From Porphyra umbilicalis (taxonomy: Eukaryota > Rhodophyta > Bangiophyceae > Bangiales > Bangiaceae), in assembly GCA_002049455.2 (NCBI GenBank), contig KV919241.1, positions 1 through 42,025 of the forward strand: a DNA stretch of 42,025 nt, in the 5' to 3' direction. Shown here piece by piece: positions 10,588 to 42,025 of the stretch; positions within the stretch are counted from its first letter, which is position 1; each line of letters begins with the position of its first letter. The translations under genes and the position numbers were made by a program. Below the pieces are notes generated by a model. The model was not told the origin of the DNA, searched no databases, and saw only the letters and a list, made by a program, of their open reading frames with translations.

Positions 10588-12109
10588 TCACGCGCCCGCG
10601 CGCCCCCCCCCCCCCCAACCCAGTCTTCCCCCCGCCCCCCCACCCCCCCCCCCCCCCCCAGGCACCACAGGGCCACCCCCCCCCCCCCCCCGCGGCCAGC
10701 ACCCCCCGTCGGGCCCCCACGCCAGGCGGCGCACGCCCCCCCCCCCCCCCCCCCAGCCCCCCCCGACCGCCCCTCCCGCCCAGGGGCCCCGTGGCGCCCC
10801 CCCCCCGCCAGACGACCCCCCCCCCCCCCCCCCCCCCCCCCACCCCCGGCCGCGCGTCGACGAGCGCAATCCCCGCCCCGCCCGCCGCCGCGGCGTACAC
10901 CCCCCCCACGGACGGCGCCCACGCCACGTCCGCAACCGCCTCGGCGCCGACGCCCGCGCGGCGCAGGAGGCGCCCGCCCCCCGCCCCCGCGCCCGACGGC
11001 GCGCCGAGCAACGACACGGCCGCCGTCCAATCGTAGCTCGACGAGGCGGCCACGCCCCGCGCGCCGCGGCCGGGCGCAAACGCCAGCCGCGTGACGGGGC
11101 CCGCGTGGGGGGTGTAGACGCCGCACCCGGTGGCGGCACTGGCGGCGGCGGCGGCGGCGGCGCCGCCGCCGCTGGCGCCGGCGGGGAGGAGGTACACCCC
11201 GCCATCGTCGGCGGTTGCCAACCCGCCGCCGCCGTCGAGTGGCAGCCGCCCGACCGCCCCGCCGTCAGTGCCGACCCAGACGCCCCCGTCGGGCGCAACG
11301 GCGAGCGCCGAGACGCCGCCGCCGGCGGTGCCACGCAGCGTGCCCGACGCGGTGGGGGACCGGAGGGAGCGCGCGTCCCACACCGCCACGACGCCGTTGC
11401 GGCTTGCCGAGATGAAGGGGGTGCCGGGCCCGGCGGGGGCACCCCCACCGCCACCCCCACCCCCACCGCCACCGCCACCGCCACCGCCACCCCCACCGCC
11501 GACGGGCAGCGCCTCGATAGCCACGACCGGGTACCCCGCGTGGCCGCCCGCCGACGGGCGGGCGGGCCCCCGCGCCACCGGCCCCGCCCCCGCCGCGCGC
11601 GGGTCAAAGACGAGGAGGGACCCCGCGGCGGTGCCGACGAGGAGGACGGACCCCCCCCCCCCCCCCCCCCCACCCGCCCGACGGCCGTCGGCGGCGCCGA
11701 CGCGGCCAACACCCGCGTCGGCGTCGGCGGCCCCGCGGCGGCGTCGTAAAAGGCGAGGAGCCCCGCCGCGTCGGGCGACGGGCCGCCCCCATGGGCGGCC
11801 GCGTCGGGGACCCCCCCTGCACCCACCGGCGCGGCCGGCGGCGGCGGCCGACCCGCCGCCGCCGCCTTGGCGGGGGTGCCCCCAAAGCGGGGCGGCCGCG
11901 GGCCGACGCGCCGCCCGGGCGTCCCCGACCGGCCGACGGCAGACGTGCCCCGCGCCTTGGCGGGCGTGCCGCCGCCGCCGTGGCCGCGCGCGTGCGGGCC
12001 GGGCGCGCCCACGGGGGGCGCCTGCGCCGCCGCGGGCGGCGGCGGCGTGTAGGCCACCACCAGCGGCGCGCCGTCGCCGCCCCAGCAGAGAGCCGCGACG
12101 CGCCCGCGG

Positions 12110-14163: not shown

Positions 14164-14222
14164 GCGCAGTGCACCTCGTTGCTGGATCCACCACGAGCCC
14201 GGTTCTGGCTCAAATTGCTCGT
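14164..14222 (+). repeat. 59-bp dispersed repeat, copy 1
   Basis: GCGCAGTGCACCTCGTTGCT and the following bases match the reverse complement of 24572-24630 with two mismatches in 59. Similarity stops on both sides. Origin unknown. Confidence 0.8.
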
Positions 14223-18106: not shown

Positions 18107-20559
18107 CTATGGTTGCTCTTCACCACTACATACCGCTCTGCACTCCTCGTCTACAGTGTCCTCTATAGCATGAGGGTCCTCCTCCAGATCCAACCAGCCC
18201 TCAACCGCAAGCTCTTGCTGAGCACGGTCGCCATCACCAAAGCAGCTCTGTGCAACCGCACAAGTCCCCATCAGCTCTAGGAACTCCCTCACGTCATCTG
18301 CAATGACGCGGTCGGAGGCGCGGTAGTCGCCGTGGTCACCCACAACGCGTGCCTCCATTTCCAGCGGCAGGACACAGGCCTTTTCCCAGCAGTGGGCAAT
18401 CGCGGCCGGTGGGACGGCGGCCCACTCCTCCAGGATGAGCTCTGCCACGTCCTGGAGGTGGGCTGGGGCCCCGTCTCGGACGCCCTTGATGGGCCGCGGA
18501 TTCAGCGCGCGTGACGTCCTCCGACGTCCTCGGACAACCGGGGGGGGGGGGTAGGGTGCTCCCACACGTTGGGTCGGGCGCGCAATGCCTCGTCCGCAGG
18601 CGTTGGCCCCGGCAAGCCCGTGAAGTAATTGGGAGTGAACGTAAATGCGTCCACTGAGCGGGGCGGGTCAATACGGACCGCAGGAGCGGCGGCTTCCGAA
18701 ATGGCGGTCTCGGCCCCCGCCGCCCGCCCGGATGAACCGGCGTGAGCTTCTGCCGCCGCGCGCCGGCCTGAGAGCGGCTCAGTAGTGCTGGCCAGCAGCG
18801 ATGGCGGAGCGGCCGAATCGGGCGCAGACGGCGGCACAGCACAGTTGGCGGTCGGGCCAGGCGCGGGTGCGGCCGGTGGTTCACCCGTGCGGGAAGCGGT
18901 AGATCCCGACTCGGCCGTCAATATCGGAGTCTCGAGAGCGCTTCCTCCACCACTGGGGGCCGGATCAGATGCTGCCGCACCGACCGCCGAATTTGGCCCT
19001 GGCGCATCGCTTGGGGGGGGGGGGGGGGGGGGGCTGCGGTCCGACGGACGCGTGTGCGGCCCGACGCGGCGACGGGCTCGAGATGCCGGGCCACTCCCCA
19101 GCACAGGGTGGGCCCAGTCGTACCCCGGCCCAGTCCACAGCCGTCGCGCCGACCACTGGATGTTCCGTCGCGGGTGGTCCACCTGGCGTTGGCCGCGCCC
19201 CCGCCGCTGCTGCCGCAACGGACGCCTCTGCAACCACCGCGTCAGCTGCTGCCGCCGCCTCCGCCGCCTCTCGTCGAACCTTGTCCTCGTGGGCCCGTAA
19301 TACCAGCGCAATCAAACGCTTCTTGTAGCGGCGTTTCACAGACGCTATGACGCCAGCGTCAAGGGGTTGGTGGATGGCCGTCACATTGGGAGGAAGCGCA
19401 CAACTGCGTACTTGCGGATGCGTCAGCTCCGTGTGGGCCCCGCAGTTATCAACGATGAGGATGACGGGCTCCCTGGTCCTTGCCTGCACGCCGGCCACAA
19501 ATACAGACGTAAACCACTTCTGGTAGACGACCGAGTCCATCCATGCTGACTTCTGATTGAAGTATGGCAGAGGGCAGCTGGCTCGCGGCGGCTTAGAACA
19601 CAGCGGCACGGCGGCTGACCCAATGATGGCAATTGGCAGCTTGTGGCTGCCCGTCGCGTTGCACGCCAACACGAGAGTGACTCGATCCTTCGCCTTCATC
19701 GCCTTGGTTCCGCGGGCCCGCCGCCGCTGCCCAGCTGCGATGTAAGCCCGGTTGGGTAGACACCGGAACTGCAGCCCCGTCTCATCCATATTATATATAT
19801 GGTCCGGGTCATACTTGGCCAGCTCCCGCCGTATCTCCGCCATGCGCTCTTCCCTTTGTCTGGCAGCCTCAATCGCCGACCCCCCTTGCCCCCACAGCGC
19901 CACGTTCCGCAGGCTGTGCCGCTGCGCCCACTTCTGGACAAAGCCCGTCGATGCCTTGAATCCAGTCACACCCAGCTCTGCCGCAATCTCCGCCGCCTTC
20001 GCCTCCAGCACTGCCAGCGTCACAGGCAGGTCGCGTCTGGCCATTGTCTGGATGCCATCATACCAAGCACGTAATCCTTGTCCACCGCCTCAAATCTTGA
20101 TCGGCGCGCCCTCACAACGTCCAGTGGCTCTCCGCTCCGCTCTCGCGCCAAAAGTCGGGACCGCTCTCGAGGCTCGCAGATCCGTCGGGCGTTGGATAAA
20201 GAGATAGGTATATCAAAGCTGTCGACCAAACTCTGCATAGAGGTGTGGACCCCTCGGTCAAACAAGCGGATAAACGCAATCTTGTCTCCCAATGACAGGG
20301 CTGTTCTCTCCTTGCGGATGAGCCCATCAGCCACGCCCGACGCCCTTGGTCTCGCCCGACGTGATGCCGCCGATCTGGGTGGCGTTGGAGGCACTGCAGT
20401 CTCGTGGAAGTGCGCAGCGGCGGCTGCAGTGGCAGCAGCGGCTGCAACGCTGACCGCCTGCCTCGTCTCCGAGGATGCCACGGGGAAGATCTCCTGGACG
20501 GCCGCCTCGGCAGCCGCGGCGGCAGCGGCGCGCGCAGCGCGAGGCGTCACGGCCGACAT
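18107..20559 (-). pseudogene. Pogo/Tigger-like DDE_1 transposase, frame interrupted three times
   Basis: Minus strand, probable ATG 20559 (MSAVTPRAAR). The first frame holds a helix-turn-helix (LSLGDKIAFIRLFDRGVHTS onward) and the start of a CENP-B-type DNA-binding domain. The frame then changes near 20050 to one opening MARRDLPVTLAVLEAKAAEI. This carries the catalytic core: YNMDETGL (about 19797-19780), VILIVDNCGAH (about 19470-19437) and IHQPLDAGVIASVKRRYKK (about 19378 on), with 29 residues between the second and third Asp. Two further frame changes occur at a long G-run (about 19013-19031) and at 18541-18550. The last frame ends at 18107 with a typical family C-terminus (VAELILEEWAAVPPAAIAHC). 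Two of three breaks sit in homopolymers, so part of the damage may be consensus error. The break near 20050 is not in a homopolymer and looks real. Confidence 0.75.
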
Positions 20560-24520: not shown

Positions 24521-25446
24521 CGAGCAAACACTCCCAGCGTGCGAGCAGAAGCCCGTTTTCAACGAGCATTTACGATCAATTTGAGCCAGAATCGGGCTCG
24601 TGGTGGATCCAGCAACGAGGTGCACTGCGCTGGCGGCAGCGGGCGGCGCGTCAATTGGCTGAACAACATGCATGGGGTGCATGAAATTCTAGGCACAGTG
24701 CGTGCCATACCCTGGCCTTCAGGGCGGTGGCGCGCTCGGCGACGCATCGACACCGGGCACGCCGGCCGGCTTTGCGGCCGCGAGTGCGCACGGGACCTCG
24801 CACAACCACGTTGCTGAGGTGAAGGGGGCGTGAGGCGGGGAAAGGGGTGCCTCCTCCGCCACCGCAGAGGCGGCGGCCCGCCGGCGTCGCGCGACGCCCA
24901 CGGGCAGGACCGTCACTCCGATGCGCAGCGCAGCTGCGCATGGCGGGCGAGGCGGCTAACACGGCGCACGGGCGGGCGAGTGGGAACTAGCGCCGCGCGA
25001 CGGGGCGCCTCCAACCACGCCGCTAGATGGCTTCAGAAAACGCCGACGAGCCGCCGCAACAGAAGCTGACGCACAGACACGATCACTCGCGGGTCATCGT
25101 GGGCGCGTCGAACTCCGGAAGTCGCTGCGCGCGGTCGCCGCGCGCAACTCGGGGCGGTGGGGGGGGCACGGGGGCAGGCGCCGTCCAAGCCCAGTGACCC
25201 CTGTGGCAGAACAGTCCTTTTCAGCCACGTAACTCCATTCGATTTCACCGTCATCGCGACCCTTCCAACACTGACACGCCCTCAGAACCCTGAGAACACG
25301 AATACAGACTGCCACCTCTGAAACGGAGAGCAAGTCTGTTAATCTAAGTATATGTGTGCATCAGTACACTTTGAGAACACCCTGTCCAAAAGGACATGAA
25401 ATTCTTACGTTAATAGTTGATTGATTCAAATACGATCATACTTCAT
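24521..25446. other. Intergenic with one dispersed-repeat piece
   Basis: Contains copy 2 of the 59-bp repeat (24572-24630) and a GC-rich part at about 24750-25200 without recognisable coding content. Confidence 0.4.
24572..24630 (-). repeat. 59-bp dispersed repeat, copy 2
   Basis: The reverse complement of 14164-14222 with two mismatches. It starts about 50 bp beyond MITE copy 2. Confidence 0.8.
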
Positions 25447-25890: not shown

Positions 25891-28096
25891 TAAGCAATGG
25901 TAAACGTATGATCAATCGTTCCGAGATCGGGTACAATCAATCAAAATATCTTTTCACATCAGGAGATGACTGAAACTGCGGTGACCTGGATTCTGGGGCC
26001 GCGGTCTCGACGGGGAGCGGCGACACGGGTGCCGCCTGGAAGGGCAATGGACTTGCGAAACAACAAAATGTACCAAAAAGATAGCATACTCAAAAACATT
26101 CAACCGATCAAAACTTTGATGTTTTCGGCGACCACTTTTCAGGTTTCCTTATATGCAGAAGAGAGCGTGCCCCTGAGACCCGGTCGTCCACTTAAGCTGC
26201 ATCTCGTTCATGAATGCCGGTGGCTTCCATGCGTGTTCAACCCCGCTGAGCGCGGACTCAGAAAGCCGAATGACACACATTTTTATTCAGGAAGGTAGTC
26301 CAACTTAGCAGATACAAGAATTTGTGGAATGTTCCTTGCTACGGGCACCAAGTCCGCGCCTCGTGATGCGTAAAAAAACATATAGCTCAAAGATTTGGGG
26401 GCTTGTTGAGAACACTTCAAGTGGTACTGGTCAGAGTGCGGTGTTTGGTGACGAGGCGCAACAGCTTTATGAACCTTGGCAAGCCCTGTAGCCAAGTTTT
26501 TGTCGAAAAAGAGCGCTTTTGAATCTCTGGTGGACAGCACAAGACGTGAAGCGCCAGTGTCGTACGGACACGATTTCCACGACCCGGTCAGGTTTGGTCT
26601 GGCGGGCTTGCAGCCACTGGGCCAGGTGCTGCATGCAAGCCCCCCAGTTCAAATATTGGCTTACAGCGAGTGAATCGGAGATGGGGGTTGGACGCAACGC
26701 TTTATGACGGGCACGCGAGGAAGCCCAACTCCCAGTCTTCTAAGAAAAAAGGTACCGTTTGATCTGATCATTATCGCAAGCCCCATACCGTCTCTCTGGA
26801 AGAGTTCGAAGCCCGATGCAGTAGTTTCGACTATTTGGCGACGTTTTTCGCGGAGGGTTTACAGTACGGCACCGAAGTTGAGCGCCCTCGAAGATGGTCT
26901 TCGCGACCATCTTCGAGTGGGTCCAGACCCGGTAGCCCCTCTGTCAGTGAAGCAGCACTGGTTGAGTCAGATTTGGTTTCAGTTAGGAGAAAAAAAGAAA
27001 TTGCAAGTGGCAGCAGCCGAACCGGCAATGAGCAGGTACTTCGGAATTGAGCAGCCAACGGCGAGGCGCGGACGGCGTCCAACTGGGCGCACCCCCCCAG
27101 CGGTCTTCTCTCTGGAGGCGCTGGACGCAAGCGCACGGCACCCTCTTGATCAGACGCGGCCTCCCCTCCATCCCCCTCTCGCTCCAACCGCCGCCACCCC
27201 CAGACTTCGTAGCAAATATCAGTCTCCAGGCAATCACCTTGGCGAAACCGTGCGACGAAGGGCACCTCGCGGGCAAATCATCGATTGCGGCTGCGTCGAG
27301 GATCAAAGGATGTCGGGGTGGTCGTGGTGAGCGCCGGCAATGCGCGGTCGCGAGGGAGGTTGGTTCGCGGATCGGCGGAACGGGGTGTGGGGTGGGGGGG
27401 GGGGGGTGGGGAGAGAGGGTGCGATCGAGAATGGCTGGTGCGCGTGTGCTTCCAGACCATAAAATGCATATTTCTTGGTCATCCAATCCGTTTCCGAAAT
27501 ATAAAATTGCGCAGCAGCCAGACTGTTGCGCTTGTCCAATCACGATTCCAAACTGCAGGTTCCAGTGAGGGTGCTACGCTCATGGCCCAGGAAGGGTGCT
27601 ACGTTTCTGGTCTACCCCAGGCGTTCTTCGGGACCGTACTGTAACGCATGAGATGTAGCGCTGGGCCGTGGCGGGCGCGTCTGGGGCACTTTCTCGGGTA
27701 CAAACGACCGATCAATACGAGAAAAGTCATGAGGATCTCAAATATTCTGTTGCCGAAGGCGTCGCCTACTTCGCGATGTAGAGTGTTTGTTATTGGAGAC
27801 ACATGAAAGAAACCCGCAAAAGAAGTTGCCAAAGCTATTAAATGTCCTCGTGCAAAAGCTTCCCGTGAAGACTGCAATAGAGCACTGACGGCCCACGTGT
27901 CCTGGAGAATCCCCCGTCAGAGGCACTTAAAAGGGGGGTTCGGTGGGTTCAGTCTAGCCACAAGGCCTGCTAAGCAGCAGAAGTGGTGTTTCTTGAGCAG
28001 AAATCACATCGTGCAGAGTAATGGACGCCTCTGCCGGAAAGAGTGCGACGTGGCTTATATTCACAGACTCTGGTGCGTCTGTGACATGGAAGTCAC
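25891..28096. other. Intergenic upstream of the tRNA gene
   Basis: 2.2 kb without a recognisable gene. A 13-bp perfect hairpin with a 5-nt loop sits at 26887-26917. A TTATATT element at about 28053 lies some 40 bp upstream of the tRNA. Confidence 0.4.
26887..26917. repeat. 13-bp perfect hairpin
   Basis: CTCGAAGATGGTC, loop TTCGC, GACCATCTTCGAG. There is no T-run after it and no gene is assigned next to it. Confidence 0.8.
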
Positions 28097-28103
28097 ACGC
28101 CGG

Positions 28104-28114
28104 TAGTGTAGTGG
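28104..28114 (+). promoter_or_regulatory. Pol III internal promoter A box
   Basis: TAGTGTAGTGG at the expected position in the tRNA D arm. Confidence 0.75.
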
Positions 28115-28146
28115 TAATCATCATCGCTTCCCATGCGATGGACCGG

Positions 28147-28157
28147 GGTTCGATTCC
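28147..28157 (+). promoter_or_regulatory. Pol III internal promoter B box
   Basis: GGTTCGATTCC matches the canonical B box exactly; it is retained in the truncated tRNA copy at 36033-36043. Confidence 0.85.
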
Positions 28158-28199
28158 CCGCCGGCGTAGGTACGGTGCGTTAGAGCGTACTGCGCGTGC

Positions 28200-28205
28200 T
28201 TTTTT
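28200..28205 (+). terminator. T6 run, possible pol III terminator
   Basis: Six T residues 31 nt after the tRNA end, preceded by a possible GTACG/CGTAC stem. The same run follows the truncated tRNA at 36086-36091. It cannot be decided whether it is the host tRNA trailer or the 5' end of the retrotransposon. Confidence 0.45.
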
Positions 28206-28271
28206 CGCGGTAGGCGGGTGCGGTGGGGGGGGGGCACCCCCCTGTCGCTTCGGTTTGGCGGGGGGGCCGCT

Positions 28272-31200
28272 ATGGACGCGGATCGGGCCGCGGAGGAGGC
28301 TGTGGGGGCGGCGTTCGCGGCGGCGATCGACGTCGCGATCGCGACGCCGTCGCCGTCGGCGCGATTGGACTTATTTTGGCGCGTATTTGACGCGATTCGG
28401 GCCAATCGGGTGCCGGCGTTTGTGGTGGTCGGCGGCGCGGTCTTGCCGCCGACCACCGCACCGGCTCTGACGGGGGTGAGAGCGGGGGTCGTGCCCCGTC
28501 ACTCCTCTGGTCGCCGTGCTGCGGGCTCCCCCCTCGGGGGGATGGGTGGGGGTGTCTTCCCCCCCCCCCCCCGCACATTGGCGGTGTTTTTTCGGCGGGG
28601 GACCCCGCCGGTCGTGCTGATGCGCCGGCCGGCCTGCGTCCCCTCGTCGCCGCGTCCCCTACGGGGGGCGGTCTGGCGGCAGCGCCGTACGTCGGGCTCC
28701 CCCGAGGGGGGGCGGTGTTCCGGTCCCGGCCGCCGCGGCGGCCGGCGGTGTCGCGGCTGTTGGTGTTGGTGCCGGCGGTGGGTGTGCTGGTGGTGCGGTC
28801 GGGCGTGGCGCTGCTGTCGCTGGCGGTGCTGGCGGTGCTGCTGCTCGGGCGTTCGGGTCGGTCGGCGGCGGTGTCGGTGCGCGCGGCGGCGGCGCTGGTG
28901 CTTCCTTTCGTTCTCGTTTCGGCGGTGCTCTTCCTGTCGGTGGGCGGTCTGTCGGGGGGGCGGGGGGTGTTGCGGCGGGGGTAGCTTTGGGGTGCGGCTC
29001 TGCCGGGGGGGCTCTGGGTGGAGGGGGGGGTGACCCACCGCTGCGCATGCCAGCGCGCGGGGGTCCCACGCCCCCGGCCCATGCCCCGTCGGCGAGTGGT
29101 CGCGCCACAGGCGCCACCCTCGCCGCTGACGGGGACACGCGCGCGGCGGGTACTGCGGGGGTGGTCGTGGGGGGTGCTGCCGCTGGTGCGGGCGGGTGCT
29201 GGGGGGGAAGTGGGGTGCCACCGGGCGGTGACGAGCCCGGTGCCCCCACCAACCTCGGCCCCGTCCCACCAGCGGGAGGACACCCTCCCGCCACCACCGC
29301 CGCGGCAAACCGCGCCGGCGCGTGGACCCTGGTGCGGCCTCGCCGGCGGCGCGGTGCTCGGCGGGGGGGGGGGGCAGTCGCTCGGCAGCCTGGCGCCCCC
29401 TCCCCGCTCGTGCAAGGCTCTGCCGGCCAGGCCGGCCGATCCGCCCGCCGCCCCGATGTGGGCCGCCCTGTCGCCGGCCAATCGGCCGGCGAGCACGGCG
29501 CTGACGACGGCGACGACCGTCCCGACGGCCGCGAGGGCGGAAACTTTTCCGCCCAGCGCGGGTACAAGGACGGCGCCGCGGCGGCTGCTGCAGACAAGGA
29601 TGGGGGCGACGGCGCTGCGCGAGGGGGGTGGCTCGGTGCTGTTTTTCGGGGTGGTCGTCGCGGGGGGGGCGGTGCTCGTGCCTCGCCTGCTGCTGCCGGC
29701 GGGGTGGCGGGCGGTGTCGCCTGGGCGTCGCGTGTCGGGCCGTCGGCGTGGGTCGCCAACGGCTCCGTCGACGCCGACATGCGCGCCGCCGCCGCCGCCG
29801 CGGAACTTTCTCGCCGGCGGCCACGGCCGCCCCCGAAGCTCACCCTCGAGACAGTGTATGTCTCGGGGGTGTCCCGCGACGTCCGCCAGCACCACCTTCG
29901 GGCGATGCTGGCCGACGTCACGGGGGTCGGCGTCCACGCATTCGTGGACGCCGACCGCTTCGGCACGACGACCGCTGTCACGCTGGTGGCCGACGCGGCG
30001 CCAGCGTTTCGCGTCGCCGTCGGTCGCGGGCGCGCGGCGACGGTGCTGCGCCTGCTGCCAGTCGCCGACCCGTGGTCGCCGGCGCTGCTGGGCGCGGCAC
30101 GGCGTCGCGCGCTGGGCGGCGGCGCGCACGCGGCGGACGTGGCGGCGGCCTACTGCCGCCGGCGCCTAACCGCCAAGCTGGGGCAGCTGTCGTTGCGGGC
30201 GGCCATGCCCGCCCACCTGCGTGCGTCGCTCCATGCCCACATCCGGGGCATGCTTGCGGCGCACGAGGGGGGCGCTGCCGCCGCCACCGCGCTCCCCGCC
30301 GGCGTCGCCGCGCGCTCCCCCGGCGCCGGCGCGGACGCGGCGGCCGGGCCGGCGGGTGGTGTAAGCCACCCGCCGGGTTTGGTCGACCACGATGACGACG
30401 ACCCCGCTGTCCGACCGAATGCGGATCGGCCGCCGCCGCCGATTTCGGCTGCGCCGGTTTCGGCGGCCGCGAGCGGGACGGCCGCGACGACGACGGGCGG
30501 GATCGTCGCCGCCGCCGCCGACGCGACAAATTCGATGTCGCCCGCCTCTGTGGGGGTGCGCGCGGCCGGCACGACCGGCGGTGCCTCGTCGGCCCCGTCG
30601 TCGTCGGGGGCGGCCATGTCGACGTCATCGTCCCGGGCCGCCTCGCCCCGAGCTCGTTCTCGCTCCCCACCGCCTCCGAATGCGGTGGGGGCTGGCGCGG
30701 CCCGCACGGTTGGCGCGGCCTCGTCGGCGCCGTCGACGTCCGGGGCGTCGATGTCGACGTCGACGTCGTCGTCGACGTCGGGCTCGTCGTCATCGTCGTC
30801 GCCGACGTCGTCGTCGTCTTCGACGTCGGGCACTTCGTCGTCGGCGTCGGCGTCGGTGCCCTCGCCGACGTCGTCCACGACGTCGTCGCCCATGTCGACG
30901 TCGACGTCGTCGTCGCCCTCGACGTCGACGTCGCCCTCGACGTCAACGACGGCGTCATCAGCGACGTCGTCGTCGTCGGCGACGGCGCAGTCGCCGCCGC
31001 GCTCGACCTCGCCGCCGACGGCGGCGGCCGCCACGCCTCTGCCGCCTCCCACCGACGCGGCCGCGGCGCTGCCCCCGTTGGCCGCGTGGATCGCCACGCC
31101 GCGCTCGCCCCCGCTTTCCCGCTCGCCGGCGGCGGCCGGCTCGCGCCGCCGACGACGCCGCGGGTGGCCCGTCCCCACCCCTGCGGCTTCGATGGCGGTG

Positions 31201-31629
31201 CGGGCGTTTGCGGGGGCCGCGTTGCCGGCCCCACCGCCGGAGTCTCGCCGGCCTTCGGCGGCGGCGCGTGCCGCGGCGGTGGCCGCATCCGCGGTGCCCC
31301 TGCCGGACCGGCCACCGCTGGCGCTCGCCGTGCAGCGCCTCGGCGCGCCGGCGGTATCGCCGAGCCGGCCGGCGGGTCAGCGCACGCGCGCGGCCCGCGC
31401 CGCGGCGCGGCCGCGGCCGGCGTCGCCTGCGCCGTCCCTGCCGGCCGCCAAGCGTCGCCGCCTGCTTGGGGCGCCAGCGGGGTCGGCGACGGCGACGGCG
31501 GCGGACACCGGCCACCCCCCCGCGACGACGGCGCGCACTCGCGCGCGCTCGTCGGCCCTCTCCGCGTCGCCCGGGCCACATAGGCCGGGCGGCGCGGCCC
31601 GCGTTAGCGACGGGGGTCGCCATGAGTGA
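28272..31629 (+). CDS. Retrotransposon ORF1 protein, copy 1 (frame disturbed in 5' half)
   Basis: Probable start ATG 28272 (MDADRAAEEAVGAAF, then ARLDLFWRVFDAIRANRVP). The frame changes near 28700 and is continuous from at least 28987 to TGA 31627-31629. An RRM-like segment at about 29840-30050 starts LETVYVSGVSRDVRQHHLRA, followed by a helical region to about 30260. RNA-binding domains of this kind are common in ORF1 proteins, which package element RNA. Next comes a Ser/Thr-rich low-complexity tract at about 30720-31000 built on GACGTC/TCG repeats, then a basic Arg/Ala/Pro tail. Copy 2 keeps the first frame through the 28700 region because it has one base fewer there. The true frame between about 28700 and 29750 is therefore uncertain; a very hydrophobic alternative frame exists at 28715-28984. 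The stop overlaps the ORF2 start by 8 nt. Confidence 0.6.
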
Positions 31630-34600
31630 CGACCCCGTGGCTGACGCGGGCGCGGGCGCGGGCCCGGTGCTCGGAACCACCGGTCCCGCACCTGCTGGAG
31701 GGGGGGGGAGCGGCCAGTCGCCCTCGGCGGACGGGGCGCCGGGGGTTGGCGGCGCAGGCGATCCCGCCGCCGCTCCCGGCGCTGCGCCTGCCGGCGTGCC
31801 GGCGGCGCCGGCCGCAGAGGCCGCGCTGTGCCCCGCCACGGGCTGCACCGTCGTGCTGCCCGACGGCGTGCGGTCGCGGCGGGGCTACGCCCACCTGGGC
31901 GGCGCCCACGTGGTGGGTGACCTGCCGCCCGGCGTGGCGGCCGAGTACGGGCTGGCGGGGTGCCGCTGGTGCCAGCGGCCCTTCCGCTCGGCGCGCGGCC
32001 GTGCGACGCGCAGCTCGCTCGCGTCGCACGAGTCGCGGTGCGCGGGGAACCCGCACCGCTTTCTCCCGCGCGCTGCGGCGGCCGCGGCGCCGGCGGCGGC
32101 CCCCCCCCCGGCCGCGGGCGCACCGCCGCCTGTAGCGGGCGGCGTGGACAGCCTTTTTGTTGACGACCACGCCGCCTGGGTGCGCGCGCGCGGAGACCTT
32201 TTCCAGCGCGTCGCGCCGGCGGGGGCGCCGTGGGCGCCGCTCATCGCGTCCGGCGCGCGCACGGTGGCGCACGTGCCGGGCGCTTTGGTCGGCGCCTGGC
32301 GTGTGCTGGCGGCGGACGCCCTGGACTGGGTCCGCCGCCAGCCGGCGCACAGCGGCGCGTGGCTCTGGCTGTTGCTGTTGCCGTCGCTGCTCCTGCACGC
32401 GCCGTGCCGGGCGCCGGCCGACGCGCCCGACAGGCCGCGCCCGCCGCTGCCGCACAAGGCGCGCGCGGCGACGCTGATGCGCGGCGACTTTGTCGCCGCG
32501 CTGGCGGACCGCAACGCGGGCGTGTGGCGGCCGGGGTGGGCGCGCCCTGTGCCGGCGGGCGGCGAGGCGGATCGGCGCGGCGGGGGCCGCGCGGCCGCGC
32601 CCACGCGTGCGGAGCGGCGCGCCCTCAAGCTGGTGCGCGCCGGCCGCCTGAGCGCGGCCGCCCGGGCGCTGGGCAGCGCCACGCCGGCGCCCCGCACGGC
32701 GGCCGTGTGGGACAAGGCGGTGGCGCTGTTCCCCCCCGCCTCGTCCACGTCGGCGACGCCGGCCTCTGTCGCCGCCGACTTTTCGGCGGCGCTGGCCGGC
32801 GCCGCCGACTTTGGCAAGCGGCCGATCGTGCCGCGGGCCGTGCCGCGGGAGGCGGTGGTTGACGCCGTCCGCGGCGCGCCCAAGGGCTCGGCGCCGGGGC
32901 CATCCGGCCTCCGGCCCGAGCACCTTTGGGCGCTGTCGGCGGCGGGGCAGGACGCCCTCCTCGACGTCCTGCTCCTGCTGTGCGGGGACGCGGCTGTGTC
33001 GCGCGTGCCCGCGGCGGCCCGCCACGCCCTGGCCGGCGCCGACCTCCTCCTCCTCACAAAAGCGGGGGGGGTCGGTGCCGACGGCCTGCCACGCCTCCGG
33101 CCCATTGGGATGCCGGACGTGTTGCGCAAGCTGGCCGCCGTCGCGTTGGCGCGCACGGTGCGCGCCGCGGCGGCCGAGTTGCTGGTGCCGGCGCAGCTCG
33201 GGGTGGGGGTGTCGAGCGCGTGCGAGCGCCTCCTCCATGAGGTGGAGGCGCACCTCGCGCTCCACCCCGAGCATGCGGTAGTCCAACTGGACTACCGCAA
33301 CGCCTTTAACCTGGTGTCGCGGGCCGCCGCGAGAGCAATGCTCTCGCGCGCGCTGCCGCTCCTCTCCCCCTACCTTGACTGGGTGTACGGGGGAGGGGAG
33401 GCGCCCACCGTCTACGGTTGGGCGCCTGACGCTGGCGCTGGCGCCGAGGCGCCGCTGTCCGACGTCGACTCTGACGTCGGCGACGGCGCAGAGGCCGCCC
33501 CGCTCCCCCCGCCCCCACCGGCGCGGCTGGCGCTGCGGCCGAGCGGGGTGCCCAACAGGGCGACCCGCTCGGCCCCCTACTGCACGCGGCGGCGCTGCAG
33601 CTGCTGCTGCAGCGCCTCCGCGCCGCCCACCCCGACGTCCTGATTCGTGCATTCCACGATGACGTCGTGGGGGTGGGCGCGCCGGCCGACCTGCACTCTG
33701 TGCTGGCGGCCGCGGCGGCGGGCGGCTCGGCGATCGACGCCGAGCTGGCCCCCGCCAAGTGCGTCGGCTGGTCGCCGTCGGGCGCGGCGGCGCCCGAGGG
33801 GTGGGCGGGCGAGTGGGCCGCCCAGGGGATTACGCTGGTTTCTGTGCCCCTCGGCGGCCCCGCCTTTGTCGACGCCGCCGTCACGCGGGTGGCGGCGGAG
33901 CAGGGCGCCCTCGTGGGGGCCATCGGCGCCCTGCCGGCAGTGCAGCTGCAGTCGCAGCTGCTGCTGCTGCGCCAGTGCGCGGGGCCGCGCGCCAACTACT
34001 GGCTGCGCGCGCTGCCCCTCGCTGCTGGCGCCCGGCTCGCCGGCGCCGTCGACGCCGACGCGCGGGCCGTCTTGGGCCGTCTGCTCTTCGACGCGCGCGA
34101 CAGCGCCGCCACACGCGAGGCGGCGCTGGAGCGCGCGGCGCTGCCGACGGCCATGGGCGGCCTGGGCGTCGGCGGGCGGACGCGGGTCGCCCCCGCCGCC
34201 GCGCTGGCGTCCTGGGTGGACGCCCTGCGGGCGGGGGCGGCCTACTCGCCGGCGCTGCGCGCCGTCGCCGACAGGCTGCGGGCGGTGCCCGTGGCGGCGG
34301 CAGACGGCGCACCGGTGGCGGGCCCTGCGGGGTCTTCGGCGCTCGCCGGCGCGGCCGCAGACGCCGTGGGCGGTGGGGGTGCGGCCGCCGGCGGAGGGGG
34401 GCGTGCCGCAACCGGTGGCGGCGGGGGTGCGGCCGGTGACGGCGGCGGGGGGGCTGGTCCCCCCCTTGCGGCGGGGGCCTTGGTGGCGGACGCGGTGGGC
34501 GGTGGTGCCCCGAGTGCGGCGCCGATTGCGCGGCCGGGGCCCGCGCCCCGCGCCGTCGGCGCGGGGAACGGGGCGGCAGACGCGAGTGCGCCGCCGTCCT

Positions 34601-35935
34601 CTTTGGGGTCACCGGGGCGGGAGGGATCTGCCTCCCCGCCCCCGCCCGGCAGCGGTGTTTGGTTCTGGGGCCCGGGGGGTGTCATCCAGCGCCCCCCGCC
34701 CCCATCGGCGGCGGACCTCGACCCCGCCCCCCCCCCCTGCCCCCGGCCCCGCACCCACAGGCGGCTGTGGCCGAGGCGTCCGCCGCCCTGGCCCTGCGTC
34801 GTGGCCTGCTGGAGCTGCTGGACGCCCAGCAGGCCCACGCAGTGGCCCCGGCGTCGGCTGGCCTGTGGGCTCCGCCGCCACCCGACGCGGCCGCGCCGCC
34901 GCGCGACGCGGACGCGCTCGCGCTTCCCCTCCCCTACCCCCTTCCCCCTACGTGCGACGCCGGTGCGACCACCGCAACGGCTACGGGCCAACACAGCCCG
35001 GCGTCGCACTCGCCCGCCACGTGGCGGGCGCTGTTGGGGGGGAGGCGCGGGCCACGCAGCGCGAGCTGTCCCGCGCTGCGCACGCCGCCGCCCGCGCGCG
35101 CCTCTACCACGAGTTATCTCTGTGGCGGCGCGCGGGGATGGCGGCGTGCCAGGGCGGGGGCGCCGCGCTCTGGCTCTCGGCGCTGCCAACGCCGGGCGTG
35201 GAGGGCACCGCCATCGCGGGGGCGCCCATGCGCGTGGCGGTTCGCCTGTGGCTGGGCGCACCGCCGCGCTCGGTGCCGCCGGGCGGGCGGTGCCGCTGCG
35301 GGAGAGGCGCCGACGCTGAGGGGCGCCACTTCATGTCGGCGTGCCTGGAGTTGGCGCCCCTCCGCGCGCGCCTCCACCACCACGTGGTGCACCTGGCGGT
35401 GGAGGCGCTGCGCGCGGCCCCGTCCTGGAAGGACGTGGTGGCCGAGATCGCGCTGCCCGCGTCGCACGGCGCCCTCCGCCCCGACCTGCGCGCGACGCAC
35501 GCCGCGTCGGGCGTCGTCGTCTGGGCCGACGCGTCCATCACGACGCCGTTCTACGAGCGGGCGATGCCCGACGCGGCGGTCGCGCCGCTGCGGCCGGTGA
35601 CGGCCGCGGCGCGCGAGGCCGCCAAGGTGGCCAAGTACGCCCCCGCCCTTGTCGGGCGGGGTACCACCCACACCTTCACCCCGTTGGTGTGGGAGTCGTA
35701 CGGCCGCATCGGCCCCGCCACACGGCGGTGGCTGCGCGACGCGCTTGGCGGGCCTCTGCGTGCCGACGCGCGCGCGACCCTGCTGCGGCGGGTGTCGGTG
35801 GCGCTGTGGCGGTCCCACTCCCGCGCTGTAGCCATTGGGTACAGCCGGTGTTTGGGAACCGCCGCGGTGGTTGAGGGTGAGGGTGAGTGGGGGCCACTTG
35901 GTCCGAATTCTTTGGGTGCGCATGTTGTTGAGTGA
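31622..35935 (+). CDS. Retrotransposon ORF2: zinc fingers, reverse transcriptase, RLE endonuclease, copy 1 (frameshifted)
   Basis: ATG 31622 (MSDDPVADAGAG). N-terminal zinc fingers: C-x4-C-x15-H-x4-H (CPATGC...HLGGAH, about 31831-31911) and C-x2-C-x18-H-x3-C (CRWC...HESRC, about 31962-32042), probable target-DNA binders. Reverse transcriptase: APGPSGLRPEHLW (about 32893), LRPIGMPDVLRK (about 33097), QLDYRNAF with catalytic Asp at 33290-33292, a QQGDPLGP motif near 33551 and FHDD at 33652-33663 (in place of the usual YADD). C-terminus: CCHC knuckle CRCGRGADAEGRH...C (about 35291-35343), then a PD-(D/E)xK-like endonuclease with RPDL (about 35478), WADASIT (about 35521-35543) and KVAKY (about 35623-35638). 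The stop is TGA 35933-35935. The frame changes near 33540 (one base fewer than copy 2), in the C-run at 34722-34740 and near 34947, so as written it is not continuous. Full length would be about 1,440 residues. Confidence 0.8.
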
Positions 35936-35968
35936 GGGGGGCCACCCCCGAAGGTGTGTTTGAGGGGG

Positions 35969-35995
35969 AGTTTATTCTCGACCGCTGAATAAACT
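35969..35995 (+). repeat. 3'-terminal hairpin of the retrotransposon
   Basis: AGTTTATTC (35969-35977), 9-nt loop, GAATAAACT (35987-35995): a perfect 9-bp stem. Its last pair uses the first base of the adjoining tRNA piece. AATAAA is contained at 35988-35993. It is a plausible recognition structure for the reverse transcriptase or a 3'-end signal. Confidence 0.8.
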
Positions 35996-36054
35996 AGTGG
36001 TAATCATCATCGCTTCCCATGCGATGGACCGGGGTTCGATTCCCCGCCGGCGTA
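35995..36054 (+). pseudogene. 5'-truncated tRNA-Gly(CCC) between the retrotransposon copies
   Basis: 60 nt identical to 28109-28168: part of the D loop, the whole anticodon arm, the T arm and the 3' acceptor strand. The 5' acceptor strand and 5' D stem are missing, so it cannot fold as a tRNA. The B box is intact (36033-36043). With the last bases of copy 1, TAAAC, it forms TAAACTAGTGG, a partial A box at the original spacing. It is best explained as a target-site duplication or as tRNA sequence carried by the element. Confidence 0.85.
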
Positions 36055-36085
36055 GGTACGGTGCGTTAGAGCGTACTGCGCGTGC

Positions 36086-36091
36086 TTTTTT
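36086..36091 (+). terminator. T6 run after the truncated tRNA
   Basis: Identical in position and context to 28200-28205. Confidence 0.4.
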
Positions 36092-36158
36092 CGCGGTAGG
36101 CGGGTGCGGTGGGGGGGGGGGCACCCCCCTGTCGCTTCGGTTTGGCGGGGGGGCCGCT

Positions 36159-39100
36159 ATGGACGCGGATCGGGCCGCGGAGGAGGCTGTGGGGGCGGCG
36201 TTCGCGGCGGCGATCGACGTCGCGATCGCGACGCCGTCGCCGTCGGCGCGATTGGACTTATTTTGGCGCGTATTTGACGCGATTCGGGCCAATCGGGTGC
36301 CGGCGTTTGTGGTGGTCGGCGGCGCGGTCTTGCCGCCGACCACCGCACCGGCTCTGACGGGGGTGAGAGCGGGGGTCGTGCCCCGTCACTCCTCTGGTCG
36401 CCGTGCTGCGGGCTCCCCCCTCGGGGGGATGGGTGGGGGTGTCTTCCCCCCCCCCCCCCGCACATTGGCGGTGTTTTTTCGGCGGGGGACCCCGCCGGTC
36501 GTGCTGATGCGCCGGCCGGCCTGCGTCCCCTCGTCGCCGCGTCCCCTACGGGGGGCGGTCTGGCGGCAGCGCCGTACGTCGGGCCCCCCGAGGGGGGGCG
36601 GTGTTCCGGTCCCGGCCGCCGCGGCGGCCGGCGGTGTCGCGGCTGTTGGTGTTGGTGCCGGCGGTGGGTGTGCTGGTGGTGCGGTCGGGCGTGGCGCTGC
36701 TGTCGCTGGCGGTGCTGGCGGTGCTGCTGCTCGGGCGTTCGGGTCGGTCGGCGGCGGTGTCGGTGCGCGCGGCGGCGGCGCTGGTGCTTCCTTTCGTTCT
36801 CGTTTCGGCGGTGCTCTTCCTGTCGGTGGGCGGTCTGTCGGGGGGGGGGGGTGTTGCGGCGGGGGTGGCTTTGGGGTGCGGCTCTGCCGGGGGGCTCTGG
36901 GTGGAGGGGGGGGTGACCCACCGCTGCGCATGCCAGCGCGCGGGGGTCCCACGCCCCCGGCCCATGCCCCGTCGGCGAGTGGTCGCGCCACAGGCGCCAC
37001 CCTCGCCGCTGACGGGGACACGCGCGCGGCGGGTACTGCGGGGGTGGTCGTGGGGGGTGCTGCCGCTGGTGCGGGCGGGTGCTGGGGGGAAGTGGGGTGC
37101 CACCGGGCGGTGACGAGCCCGGTGCCCCCACCAACCTCGGCCCCGTCCCACCAGCGGGAGGACACCCTCCCGCCACCACCGCCGCGGCAGACCGCGCCGG
37201 CGCGTGGACCCTGGTGCGGCCTCGCCGGCGGCGCGGTGCTCGGCGGGGGGGGGGGCAGTCGCTCGGCAGCCTGGCGCCCCCTCCCCGCTCGTGCAAGGCT
37301 CTGCCGGCCAGGCCGGCCGATCCGCCCGCCGCCCCGATGTGGGCCGCCCTGTCGCCGGCCAATCGGCCGGCGAGCACGGCGCTGACGACGGCGACGACCG
37401 TCCCGACGGCCGCGAGGGCGGAAACTTTTCCGCCCAGCGCGGGTACAAGGACGGCGCCGCGGCGGCTGCTGCAGACAAGGATGGGGGCGACGGCGCTGCG
37501 CGAGGGGGGTGGCTCGGTGCTGTTTTTCGGGGTGGTCGTCGCGGGGGGGGCGGTGCTCGTGCCTCGCCTGCTGCTGCCGGCGGGGTGGCGGGCGGTGTCG
37601 CCTGGGCGTCGCGTGTCGGGCCGTCGGCGTGGGTCGCCAACGGCTCCGTCGACGCCGACATGCGCGCCGCCGCCGCCGCCGCGGAACTTTCTCGGCGGCG
37701 GCCACGGCCGCCCCCGACGCTCACCCTCGAGACAGTGTATGTCTCGGGGGTGTCCCGCGACGTCCGCCAGCACCACCTTCGGGCGATGCTGGCCGACGTC
37801 ACGGGGGTCGGCGTCCACGCATTCGTGGACGCCGACCGCTTCGGCACGACGACCGCTGTCACGCTGGTGGCCGACGCGGCGCCAGCGTTTCGCGTCGCCG
37901 TCGGTCGCGGGCGCGCGGCGACGGTGCTGCGCCTGCTGCCAGTCGCCGACCCGTGGTCGCCGGCGCTGCTGGGCGCGGCACGGCGTCGCGCGCTGGGCGG
38001 CGGCGCGCACGCGGCGGACGTGGCGGCGGCCTACTGCCGCCGGCGCCTAACCGCCAAGCTGGGGCAGCTGTCGTTGCGGGCGGCCATGCCCGCCCACCTG
38101 CGTGCGTCGCTCCATGCTCACATCCGGGGCATGCTTGCGGCGCACGAGGGGGCGCTGCCGCCGCCACCGCGCTCCCCGCCGGCGTCGCCGCGCGCTCCCC
38201 CGGCGCCGGCGCGGACGCGGCGGCCGGGCCGGCGGGTGGTGTAAGCCACCCGCCGGGTTTGGTCGACCACGATGACGACGACCCCGCTGTCCGACCGAAT
38301 GCGGATCGGCCGCCGCCGCCGATTTCGGCTGCGCCGGTTTCGGCGGCCGCGAGCGGGACGGCCGCGACGACGACGGGCGGGATCGTCGCCGCCGCCGCCG
38401 ACGCGACAAATTCGATGTCGCCCGCCTCTGTGGGGGTGCGCGCGGCCGGCACGACCGGCGGTGCCTCGTCGGCCCCGTCGTCGTCGGGGGCGGCCATGTC
38501 GACGTCATCGTCCCGGGCCGCCTCGCCCCGAGCTCGTTCTCGCTCCCCACCGCCTCCGAACGCGGTGGGGGCTGGCGCGGCCCGCACGGTTGGCGCGGCC
38601 TCGTCGGCGCCGTCGACGTCCGGGGCGTCGATGTCGACGTCGACGTCGTCGTCGACGTCGGGCTCGTCGTCATCGTCGTCGCCGACGTCGTCGTCGTCTT
38701 CGACGTCGGGCACTTCGTCGTCGGCGTCGGCGTCGGTGCCCTCGCCGACGTCGTCCACGACGTCGTCGCCCATGTCGACGTCGACGTCGTCGTCGCCCTC
38801 GACGTCGACGTCGCCCTCGACGTCAACGACGGCGTCGTCAGCGACGTCGTCGTCGTCGGCGACGGCGCAGTCGCCGCCGCGCTCGACCTCGCCGCCGACG
38901 GCGGCGGCCGCCACGCCTCTGCCGCCTCCCACCGACGCGGCCGCGGCGCTGCCCCCGTTGGCCGCGTGGACCGCCACGCCGCGCTCGCCCCCGCTTTCCC
39001 GCTCGCCGGCGGCGGCCGGCTCGCGCCGCCGACGACGCCGCGGGTGGCCCGTCCCCACCCCTGCGGCTTCGATGGCGGTGCGGGCGTTTGCGGGGGCCGC

Positions 39101-39509
39101 GTTGCCGGCCCCACCGCCGGAGTCTCGCCGGCCTTCGGCGGCGGCGCGTGCCGCGGCGGTGGCCGCATCCGCGGTGCCCCTGCCGGACCGGCCACCGCTG
39201 GCGCTCGCCGTGCAGCGCCTCGGCGCGCCGGCGGTATCGCCGAGCCGGCCGGCGGGTCAGCGCACGCGCGCGGCCCGCGCCGCGGCGCGGCCGCGGCCGG
39301 CGTCGCCTGCGCCGTCCCTGCCGGCCGCCAAGCGTCGCCGCCTGCTTGGGGCGCCAGCGGGGTCGGCGACGGCGACGGCGGCGGACACCGGCCACCCCCC
39401 CGCGACGACGGCGCGCACTCGCGCGCGCTCGTCGGCCCTCTCCGCGTCGCCCGGGCCACATAGGCCGGGCGGCGCGGCCCGCGTTAGCGACGGGGGTCGC
39501 CATGAGTGA
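36159..39509 (+). CDS. Retrotransposon ORF1 protein, copy 2 (frame disturbed)
   Basis: ATG 36159 opens the same N-terminus as copy 1. The first frame stays open to 37385, including the stretch where copy 1 breaks near 28700. It loses register with copy 1 in the G-run near 37083, where copy 2 has one base fewer. The RRM-like part (VYVSGVSRDV, about 37737) is in another frame, and a further shift occurs near 38150 (ACGAGGGGGCGCTG, one G fewer). The Ser-rich tract and basic tail then run to the stop at 39509, again overlapping ORF2. The copies break at different places, so the ancestor was probably one continuous ORF. Confidence 0.55.
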
Positions 39510-42025
39510 CGACCCCGTGGCTGACGCGGGCGCGGGCGCGGGCCCGGTGCTCGGAACCACCGGTCCCGCACCTGCTGGAGGGGGGGGGAGCGGCCAGTCG
39601 CCCTCGCGGACGGGGCGCCGGGGGTTGGCGGCGCAGGCGATCCCGCCGCCGCTCCCGGCGCTGCGCCTGCCGGCGTGCCGGCGGCGCCGGCCGCAGAGGC
39701 CGCGCTGTGCCCCGCCACGGGCTGCACCGTCGTGCTGCCCGACGGCGTGCGGTCGCGGCGGGGCTACGCCCACCTGGGCGGCGCCCACGTGGTGGGTGAC
39801 CTGCCGCCCGGCGTGGCGGCCGAGTACGGGCTGGCGGGGTGCCGCTGGTGCCAGCGGCCCTTCCGCTCGGCGCGCGGCCGTGCGACGCGCAGCTCGCTCG
39901 CGTCGCACGAGTCGCGGTGCGCGGGGAACCCGCACCGCTTTCTCCCGCGCGCTGCGGGCGGCCGCGGCGCCGGCGGCGGCCCCCCCCCGGCCGCGGGCGC
40001 ACCGCCGCCTGTAGCGGGCGGCGTGGACAGCCTTTTGTTGACGACCACGCCGCCTGGGTGCGCGCGCGCGGAGACCTTTTCCAGCGCGTCGCGCCGGCGG
40101 GGGCGCCGTGGGCGCCGCTCATCGCGTCCGGCGCGCGCACGGTGGCGCACGTGCCGGGCGCTTTGGTCGGCGCCTGGCGTGTGCTGGCGGCGGACGCCCT
40201 GGACTGGGTCCGCCGCCAGCCGGCGCACAGCGGCGCGTGGCTCTGGCTGTTGCTGTTGCCGTCGCTGCTCCTGCACGCGCCGTGCCGGGCGCCGGCCGAC
40301 GCGCCCGACAGGCCGCGCCCGCCGCTGCCGCACAAGGCGCGCGCGGCGACGCTGATGCGCGGCGACTTTGTCGCCGCGCTGGCGGACCGCAACGCGGGCG
40401 TGTGGCGGCCGGGGTGGGCGCGCCCTGTGCCGGCGGGCGGCGAGGCGGATCGGCGCGGCGGGGGCCGCGCGGCCGCGCCCACGCGTGCGGAGCGGCGCGC
40501 CCTCAAGCTGGTGCGCGCCGGCCGCCTGAGCGCGGCCGCCCGGGCGCTGGGCAGCGCCACGCCGGCGCCCCGCACGGCGGCCGTGTGGGACAAGGCGGTG
40601 GCGCTGTTCCCCCCCGCCTCGTCCACGTCGGCGACGCCGGCCTCTGTCGCCGCCGACTTTTCGGCGGCGCTGGCCGGCGCCGCCGACTTTGGCAAGCGGC
40701 CGATCGTGCCGCGGGCCGTGCCGCGGGAGGCGGTGGTTGACGCCGTCCGCGGCGCGCCCAAGGGCTCGGCGCCGGGGCCATCCGGCCTCCGGCCCGAGCA
40801 CCTTTGGGCGCTGTCGGCGGCGGGGCAGGACGCCCTCCTCGACGTCCTGCTCCTGCTGTGCGGGGAAGCGGCTGTGTCGCGCGTGCCCGCGGCGGCCCGC
40901 CACGCCCTGGCCGGCGCCGACCTCCTCCTCCTCACAAAAGCGGGGGGGTCGGTGCCGACGGCCTGCCACGCCTCCGGCCCATTGGGATGCCGGAGGTGTT
41001 GCGCAAGCTGCCGCCGTCGCGTTGGCGCGCACGGTGCGCGCCGCGGCGGCCGAGTTGCTGGGCCGGCGCAGCTCGGGTGGGGTGTCGAGCGCGTGCGAGC
41101 GCCTCCTCCATGAGGTGGAGGCGCACCTCGCGCTCCACCCCGAGCATGCGGTAGTCCAACTGGACTACCGCAACGCCTTTAACCTGGTGTCGCGGGCCGC
41201 CGCGAGAGCAATGCTCTCGCGCGCGCTGCCGCTCCTCTCCCCCTACCTTGACTGGGTGTACGGGGAGGGGAGGCGCCCACCGTTACGGTTGGGCGCCTGA
41301 CGCTGGCGCTGGCGCCGAGGCGCCGCGTCCGACGTCGACTCTGACGTCGGCGACGGCGCAGAGGCCGCCCGCTCCCCCGCCCCCACCGGCGCGGCTGGCG
41401 CTGCGGGCCGAGCGGGGTGCCCAACAGGGCGACCCGCTCGGCCCCTACTGCACGCGGCGGCGCTGCAGCTGCTGCTGCAGCGCCTCCGCGCCGCCCACCC
41501 CGACGTCCTGATTCGTGCATTCCACGATGACGTCGTGGGGTGGGCGCGCCGGCCGACCTGCACTCTGTGCTGGCGGCCGCGGCGGCGGGCGGCTCGGCGA
41601 TCGACGCCGAGCTGGCCCCGCCAAGTGCGTCGGCTGGTCGCCGTCGGGCGCGGCGGCGCCCGAGGGTGGGCGGGCGAGTGGGCCGCCCAGGGGATTACGC
41701 GTTTCTGTGCCCCTCGGCGGCCCCGCCTTTGTCGACGCCGCCGTCAGCGGGTGGCGGCGGAGCAGGGCGCCCTCGTGGGGGCCATCGGCGCCCTGCCGGC
41801 ATGCAGCTGCAGTCGCAGCTGCTGCTGCTGCGCCATGCGCGGGGCCGCGCGCCAACTACTGGCTGCGCGCGCTGCCCCTCGCTGCTGGCGCCCGGCTCGC
41901 CGGCGCCGTCGACGCCGACGCGCGGGCCGTCTTGGGCCGTCTGCTCTTCGACGCGCGCGACAGCGCCGCCACACGCGAGGCGGCGCTGGAGCGGCGCGCT
42001 GCCGACGGCCATGGGCGGCCTGGGC
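39502..42025 (+). CDS. Retrotransposon ORF2, copy 2, partial and frameshifted
   Basis: ATG 39502. Both zinc fingers and the reverse transcriptase motifs up to QLDYRNAF (about 41158) are present, and the GAQQGDPLGP motif reads correctly at about 41420, unlike copy 1. FHDD follows at about 41519-41530 in another frame. Single-base losses begin near 39606 (one G) and become dense after 40950. The coding sequence continues beyond the window. Confidence 0.65.

Follow-up and report, generated by a model that had tools for sequence, protein, structure and literature searches.

A tRNA-Gly-associated array of R2-type retrotransposons in Porphyra umbilicalis, and evidence for repeated insertion with target duplication at RNA polymerase III genes

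Retrotransposons without long terminal repeats (non-LTR elements) that encode a restriction-like endonuclease (RLE) are already known to target tRNA genes, as NeSL-1_TV (tRNA-Pro), LIN15_SM (tRNA-Arg) and LIN25_SM (tRNA-Glu) do, and arrays at small-RNA genes are likewise known (Kojima & Jurka 2015, PMC4640811). The stretch of DNA analysed here (42,025 nucleotides of the red alga Porphyra umbilicalis, contig KV919241.1, positions 1 to 42,025, assembly GCA_002049455.2; 'the window' below) carries an intact tRNA-Gly(CCC) gene, a non-LTR element with two open reading frames (ORFs), a 60-nt truncated copy of the same tRNA and a second, near-identical element. This locus is very probably the 5′ end of an array of R2-type RLE elements that use RNA polymerase III (Pol III) genes as targets and were inserted repeatedly with target duplication. 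Like NeSL-1_TV, LIN15_SM and LIN25_SM, with which it was compared by description and not by sequence, the Porphyra element is an RLE non-LTR element inside tRNA genes, and it differs in host and tRNA (PMC4640811). A sequence-only reading of the window, whose author was aware of no described RLE element with a tRNA-Gly target, needs narrowing to that extent; for the tRNA-gene RLE elements, sections 7 and 10 of PMC4640811 mention neither arrays nor a duplication of the remaining gene.

Among the other described systems, Utopia elements (U2 small nuclear RNA (snRNA) genes of Phytophthora and Nasonia) are similar in strict small-RNA-gene targeting, in arrays that hold several families (Phytophthora) and in 3′ ends followed by U2 genes that lack their 5′ end and outnumber the intact ones; they differ in target, in host group and in a target duplication that is absent (arthropods) or 20 bp long (reptiles), against most of the gene in Porphyra (sections of PMC4640811). 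TRE5/TRE3 and NLTR of social amoebae are also non-LTR elements at tRNA genes (TRE5 also at 5S), but belong to the L1 clade, use an apurinic/apyrimidinic endonuclease (APE) and integrate at varying distances outside the gene; ORF1 of TRE5 binds TFIIIB, and the portion consulted of this review of Pol III-gene-targeted retrotransposons treats L1-clade non-LTR elements and nowhere contains the term 'restriction-like' (PMC5911963). Dada elements likewise target tRNA and snRNA genes and shift among tRNA types, but are DNA transposons with a 6-bp target duplication in one example (PMC8869645, in part). R2 shares with the Porphyra element the order of reverse transcriptase (RT), CCHC finger and RLE (profile E 1e-27), and target-primed reverse transcription is expected; R2 differs in its ribosomal DNA (rDNA) target and in having, in the partial descriptions used, a single ORF, against ORF1 plus ORF2 and an AFHDD RT motif in Porphyra. 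R9 of rotifers, also with an rDNA target, reportedly makes a duplication of 126 bp, whereas in Porphyra the length varies with the gene. Among the ranked matches that searches of the open-licence literature listed, none was a non-LTR element targeting tRNA genes in red algae, which is weak evidence as subscription papers and Repbase reports lie outside that scope; nor did these matches include a system that unites, within one host, four Pol III targets with a duplication covering most of the gene up to its 3′ end and with intron-marked arrays.

Junctions in the window and across the genome

The arrangement of intact tRNA-Gly(CCC), element, truncated tRNA and second element was confirmed by ARAGORN, by Rfam and by the exact junction, at which the 3′ terminus of copy 1 (position 35994, reading ...GACCGCTGAATAAAC) abuts position 13 of the tRNA base for base. 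The truncated tRNA gave no Rfam tRNA call at gathering score, and a second ARAGORN call at 35982-36054 was rejected as a false positive in which the fragment was padded with element sequence. The genome (83.8 Mb, 665 contigs, the window contig being C481) was then searched; these searches score best candidates only, so that every locus count below is a lower bound. In what follows, a head is an intact gene followed by an element, and a junction is an element 3′ end followed by a partial target gene and the next element.

Gly-type 3′ ends, searched with 395 bases of the element 3′ end, were found at at least six places, five of which (C481 once, C210 twice, C596 twice) continue into tRNA-Gly positions 13-72 and then into the next element, base-exactly on all three contigs. 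The tRNA fragment is therefore not peculiar to the window, and the target duplication of at least about 60 bp proposed in the sequence-only reading is borne out by junctions across the genome. tRNA-Gly was present in full in three copies, each with an element directly behind it, and truncated in five; a tRNA-Gly gene without an insert, which that reading had suggested looking for, was found once (C147) and carries a 31-nt D-loop intron. The proposed targeting of tRNA-Gly holds for this lineage and is too narrow for the wider family, which was also read at tRNA-Asp, tRNA-Ile and 5S genes. Relatives at tRNA-Asp(GTC) have 3′ ends 84-85% (lineage A) or 73-76% (lineage B) identical to that of the window, and all 23 hits listed resolved into six heads, 13 junctions, one tail with non-element flank and three empty genes. 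At tRNA-Ile(AAT), mostly on C57, a single contig where the copies are spaced about 8 kb apart, nine junctions, one probable tail, two heads and two empty genes were read; C57:86805 was scored as probable tail and not as junction, only about 50 bases behind its tRNA resembling the element. In all, 27 junctions were read (5 Gly, 13 Asp, 9 Ile; the fragment C455 was excluded).

The 5S relative lies on C241, a contig with 39 further 5S units (best 40 of 220 candidates). Its head, at about 115.8 kb, consists of native spacer, 5S gene, a run of five T and the element 5′ end; its tail, at about 104 kb, consists of the element 3′ end, the same spacer point, 5S gene and native spacer. Head and tail are about 11.5 kb apart and have about 212-224 bp in common; lying in native spacer, this head (L073) is absent from the junction total. 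Among 19 stretches (about 1.1-1.2 kb) of more distant RT relatives (about 44-60% identical), an Rfam scan found a Pol III gene, 5S, in one only (L093); for the other 18 the 3′ ends were not located, so the scan is uninformative on their targets.

In each target the 3′ junction occupies a set position: 12/13 in tRNA-Gly, 7/8 in tRNA-Asp and, for the 5S gene, a point about 90-100 bp upstream; at tRNA-Ile, one subfamily joins at about 4/5 and another in the anticodon-loop region. The two tRNA-Ile subfamilies (L031, L062-L065, L067-L070, L107; C57, C15, C415) use different sites in the same gene, and in one of them the element 3′ end resembles the anticodon-arm sequence of the target (GTGCTAATAA). 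The D-arms of tRNA-Asp (TAGTATAGTGG) and tRNA-Gly (TAGTGTAGTGG) differ at one position, and to judge from the sequences the Gly lineage most likely arose through a target switch from tRNA-Asp.

Target sequence downstream of the 3′ junction flanks the element on either side, reaching as far as the 3′ end of the gene or its terminator, and the left junction lay at the gene 3′ end in the copies read. Of 38 head or junction copies scored, 37 have, 0-31 nt past the end of the gene, a T-run of at least four (at +31 in all seven Gly copies scored), against a background of 3.5% of 40-nt windows in the element body. The 5S repeat unit was matched through GTACGTTTTT, the head departing immediately after it, and the Ile trailer resembles that of the empty gene as far as its T-run (CGGCTGT..TTTTT); the probable tail C57:86805 matches the element trailer for about 50 bases, across two T-runs (82%). 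These edges are read as one approximate joining rule, at the Pol III gene end or terminator.

The predicted proteins place the element in the RLE type of non-LTR retrotransposon (R2/NeSL/CRE/R4/HERO group), as had been proposed, because a profile built from 30 ORF2 relatives matched solved R2 proteins (9nl3, 9dou; E 1e-27) across RT, CCHC finger and restriction-like endonuclease, and because the RT motif is AFHDD. The two-ORF structure also stood, with ORF2 frame-broken in copy 1: its motifs fall into three stretches with alternating frames. In P0004, a metagenomic relative of 1438 aa, the ORF2 protein runs in a single frame from the zinc fingers through the endonuclease, RT, CCHC finger and PD..D-type endonuclease sharing one ORF; by tblastn, aa 1-639 of P0004 match 31622-33538 (98%) and the remainder is spread over two frames up to 35932. 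Pfam RVT_1 was present in 22 of the 30 ORF2 relatives, plus one stray hit, and a Pfam scan of the window's own broken frames gave no match; ORF1 matched no Pfam family at E 1, its block VYVSGVSR at 29854 being also present in copy 2. Precise 3′ ends (the same exact terminus in six Gly copies) and a 5′-truncated copy (310 bp, C49), both traits of RLE elements, were found. As to the group, the targets read are tRNA-Gly, tRNA-Asp, tRNA-Ile and 5S genes and not the 28S rRNA site of the R2 clade; the junctions carry tRNA or 5S sequence and not the U2 snRNA or spliced-leader genes of NeSL and Utopia, other NeSL-related families being known to use tRNA genes (PMC4640811); and, against the TRE type, an RLE replaces the APE and the junction falls within the tRNA. 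Among the matches listed in protein searches (47 rows in one, the best 120 of 1239 in another), none bore the name NeSL, CRE, R4, HERO or Utopia, and 3′ RNA folds computed on single sequences disagree from lineage to lineage.

Array growth and the tRNA between elements

In a midpoint-rooted tree of the last 900 bases (21 rows, among which the C49 row with about 590 bp and the 5S row with about 90 bp of non-element sequence have long branches for that reason), Asp lineages A and B were resolved, with the Gly group beside lineage A. Elements of both Asp lineages are present in the arrays on C394, C271 and C628; these arrays were therefore not made by duplicating one unit, and the arrays are the result of repeated insertion, in keeping with the earlier proposal of re-insertion into the duplicated target. 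The most diverged copies tend to be the most 3′ (C210c, C596c, C24c, C271d; C394 is an exception), a suggestive fit to array growth at the 5′ end.

Multiplication of the tRNA-element unit after a single insertion, whether by unequal crossing-over or by segmental tandem duplication and without re-insertion, would agree with the ease with which tandem units recombine, with the intron and trailer variants common within contigs and with the window itself, whose copies are only 10 substitutions (plus 33 small indels) apart across 6,028 aligned bases. The final kilobase ahead of the contig end accounts for about half of the differing columns, and in copy 2 homopolymers are close to 20 of the 30 gaps, so that many of the differences are probably sequencing errors; taken alone, the window pair could be a recent local duplication. 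For the family as a whole this explanation is unlikely, given the two lineages in the C394, C271 and C628 arrays, the same junction form at three tRNA genes and a third C210 copy at most 84% identical to the window copy in its 3′ half. An assembly artefact, with repeats collapsed or chimaerically joined, would account for the position of copy 2 at a contig end with many indels, and C596 could be a misplaced continuation of C481; the recurrence of identical base-exact junctions across many contigs and at different genes, in some cases (C57, C210) at least tens of kilobases away from a contig end, makes it very improbable.

Alternatively, the tRNA might belong to the element itself, as a Pol III promoter captured at the 5′ end and moved along as RNA, in which case the head tRNA would be element-borne from the junction on. 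The main evidence on this point comes from short, locus-specific introns in the D loop of nuclear tRNA-Asp, tRNA-Gly and tRNA-Ile genes (L048-L056, L061, L066, L102, L103; on C394, C438, C36, C24, C334, C179, C188, C491, C137, C147, C57, C169 and C122), at about position 20/21 in several genes and joined or replaced by T-loop introns on C137, C169 and C122; where such genes were scanned with ARAGORN (all but L102 and L103), those with introns received no tRNA call. In tRNAs of the red alga Cyanidioschyzon, 20/21 is described as a permutation junction and the D loop as an intron site (PMC3978253, in part). Among 12 of the 13 Asp junction copies (L020, a near-copy of L019 on the same contig, was omitted), intron identity was 0.72 within contigs and 0.55 between (permutation p 0.018), against 0.841 and 0.837 (p 0.415) for the element bodies of the same copies, and intron and body identity correlated at 0.13. 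In a tree of the 5′ kilobase (rows of at least 500 bases, A/B labels taken from the 3′ end, L018 omitted), element C394c was nearest C24b (support 100/99), yet it stands behind the C394 intron. Because the D-loop introns of the tRNA-Asp copies go with the element less closely than with the locus, the interposed tRNA is supported as duplicated target and not as cargo. Carriage, at first preferred on the intronless Gly heads and then disfavoured by the intron comparison, has in its favour the fixed register in which the tRNA precedes the element; introns are nonetheless retained in six Asp heads, the heads on C394, C438 and C36 look alike by eye in their upstream flanks, as paralogous native loci would, the 5S head and tail both lie within native spacer, and the C49 copy has no tRNA, all of which leaves carriage improbable.

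Several observations weigh against repeated insertion with duplicated targets, the intron patterns among them speaking at the same time for carriage. Three intact Gly heads lack the D-loop intron found in the empty C147 gene, C271 mixes two intron types in one array, and the tRNA-Ile head on C57 carries an intron that is missing from its junction (78736); the C271 and C57 exceptions may be traces of gene conversion at the head between insertions, or of a degree of tRNA carriage with the element. One of the six Gly-type 3′ ends (C49) continues into unrelated sequence at a non-tRNA site, the finding that the sequence-only reading had named as a refutation; this copy consists of the last 310 bp only, ending exactly at the common terminus, and is of a kind that target-primed reverse transcription can give. 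Sequence that contains an inverted repeat, likely a nested transposon, splits the third Gly element on C210 (about 56500, L046), C17 retains only its first part, and no tail was seen for C17, C210, C438, C491 or C24. For no single Gly insertion were both head and tail found, so that for Gly the duplication is read from junctions alone. The L018 junction is the sole copy of the 38 without a T-run, and the C457 tail shares an intron with the C36 array, from which C36 and C457 are taken as one locus, but has a different trailer, so that the right edge of the tRNA-Asp duplication is uncertain by about 15 nt and may lie at the tRNA end itself.

Features of the window

Coordinates are collected in Table 1. 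The trailer behind the intact tRNA belongs either to the target duplication or to the 5′ end of the element, and copy 1 proper may start at 28206, past the T-run.

Table 1. Features of the tRNA-Gly-associated array in the window.
Feature	Position	Strand	Basis or remark
Intact tRNA-Gly(CCC), array head	28097..28168	+	ARAGORN; Rfam RF00005, 58.5 bits; identical 72-nt copies at two other element heads
tRNA 3′ trailer, ending in a T6 run (28200-28205)	28169..28205	+	Pol III terminator-like site
Element copy 1, RLE non-LTR retrotransposon (predicted)	28169..35994	+	
ORF1, 880 aa as listed, TTG start	28987..31629	+	
ORF2, two frame changes in copy 1	31622..35935	+	tblastn with P0004
Two N-terminal zinc-finger-like patterns, CX4C..H..H and CX2C..H..C	31829..32041	+	Residue pattern in translation
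Reverse transcriptase core: APGPSGLRPEHL, QLDYRNAFN, GDPLGPLL, AFHDDV	32891..33666	+	
CCHC-type finger and restriction-like endonuclease (RPDL...WADAS...KVAKYA)	35291..35641	+	
3′ untranslated region, G-rich/C-rich inverted repeats, terminus ...CGCTGAATAAAC	35936..35994	+	Identical terminus in six copies, one at a non-tRNA site
5′-truncated tRNA-Gly (positions 13-72, 60 nt), target duplication at the junction	35995..36054	+	
Element copy 2, incomplete at contig end	36055..42025	+	

Upstream of the tRNA-Gly gene, about 100 bp (27843-27949) recur at the C210 head, upstream of a tRNA-Val(AAC) gene on C160 and in four dispersed copies without a called tRNA (C7, C88, C34, C419); the sequence is either an upstream element of Pol III genes or a different repeat that inserts close to tRNA genes. 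The sequence at 27510-27646 is a dispersed repeat with about 30 copies among the matches listed in the genome. A DDE_1/Tc5-type transposase gene lies at 18965-20044 on the minus strand (Pfam E 2e-26), and a second ORF at 15270-17180 on the plus strand has a transposase-like look, its helix-turn-helix matches being weak and below cut-off. These ORFs are flanked by a 59-nt inverted repeat (14164-14222 and 24572-24630, 97% complementary, 10.3 kb apart), possibly the terminal repeats of a large DNA transposon. An ARAGORN tRNA-Ala call at 11146-11236, inside a GC-rich simple repeat and without Rfam support at gathering score, is probably false. Elsewhere in the assembly, C665 holds a dense tRNA set and is organelle-like, probably the plastid genome.

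Proposed insertion cycle and its meaning

In the proposed cycle, the endonuclease would nick the bottom strand at a fixed position of the target, reverse transcription would be primed at the nick, and the second strand would be joined at or near the gene 3′ end or the T-run. Such joining would duplicate the remainder of the gene and restore an intact gene upstream, which would then serve as target for the next insertion, so that arrays would extend from the 5′ side; as the duplicated stretch ends near the gene 3′ end or terminator T-run, an intact gene would result upstream whatever the length duplicated. Intact target tRNA genes numbered 17 (4 Gly, 9 Asp, 4 Ile), 11 of which have an element directly behind them (Gly 3, Asp 6, Ile 2). 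T-loop introns, which interrupt the B-box region, were present in none of the 11 occupied and in three of the six empty genes (hypergeometric 0.029), a difference noticed post hoc. Gene-restoring duplication would explain how 11 of 17 genes, including three of four tRNA-Gly(CCC) genes, can be occupied without obvious gene loss, and new copies can keep stacking behind an intact gene with little apparent harm to the host.

A broader and tentative proposal, somewhat more doubtful than not, is that of a red-algal RLE clade specialised on Pol III genes as a class, with the left junction set by the terminator. If so, every insertion would rebuild a complete, terminated gene upstream, whatever the gene or the position of the first nick, and an essential gene of low copy number could carry the element at most of its copies, with stacking that goes on indefinitely and intron-bearing fossil tRNA genes left behind. 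Site-specific RLE elements such as R2 are under development as gene-insertion tools. One host with related lineages on four Pol III targets, of which Asp and Gly were apparently split by a switch between near-identical D-arms, would make target switching directly testable through the N-terminal fingers of natural proteins.

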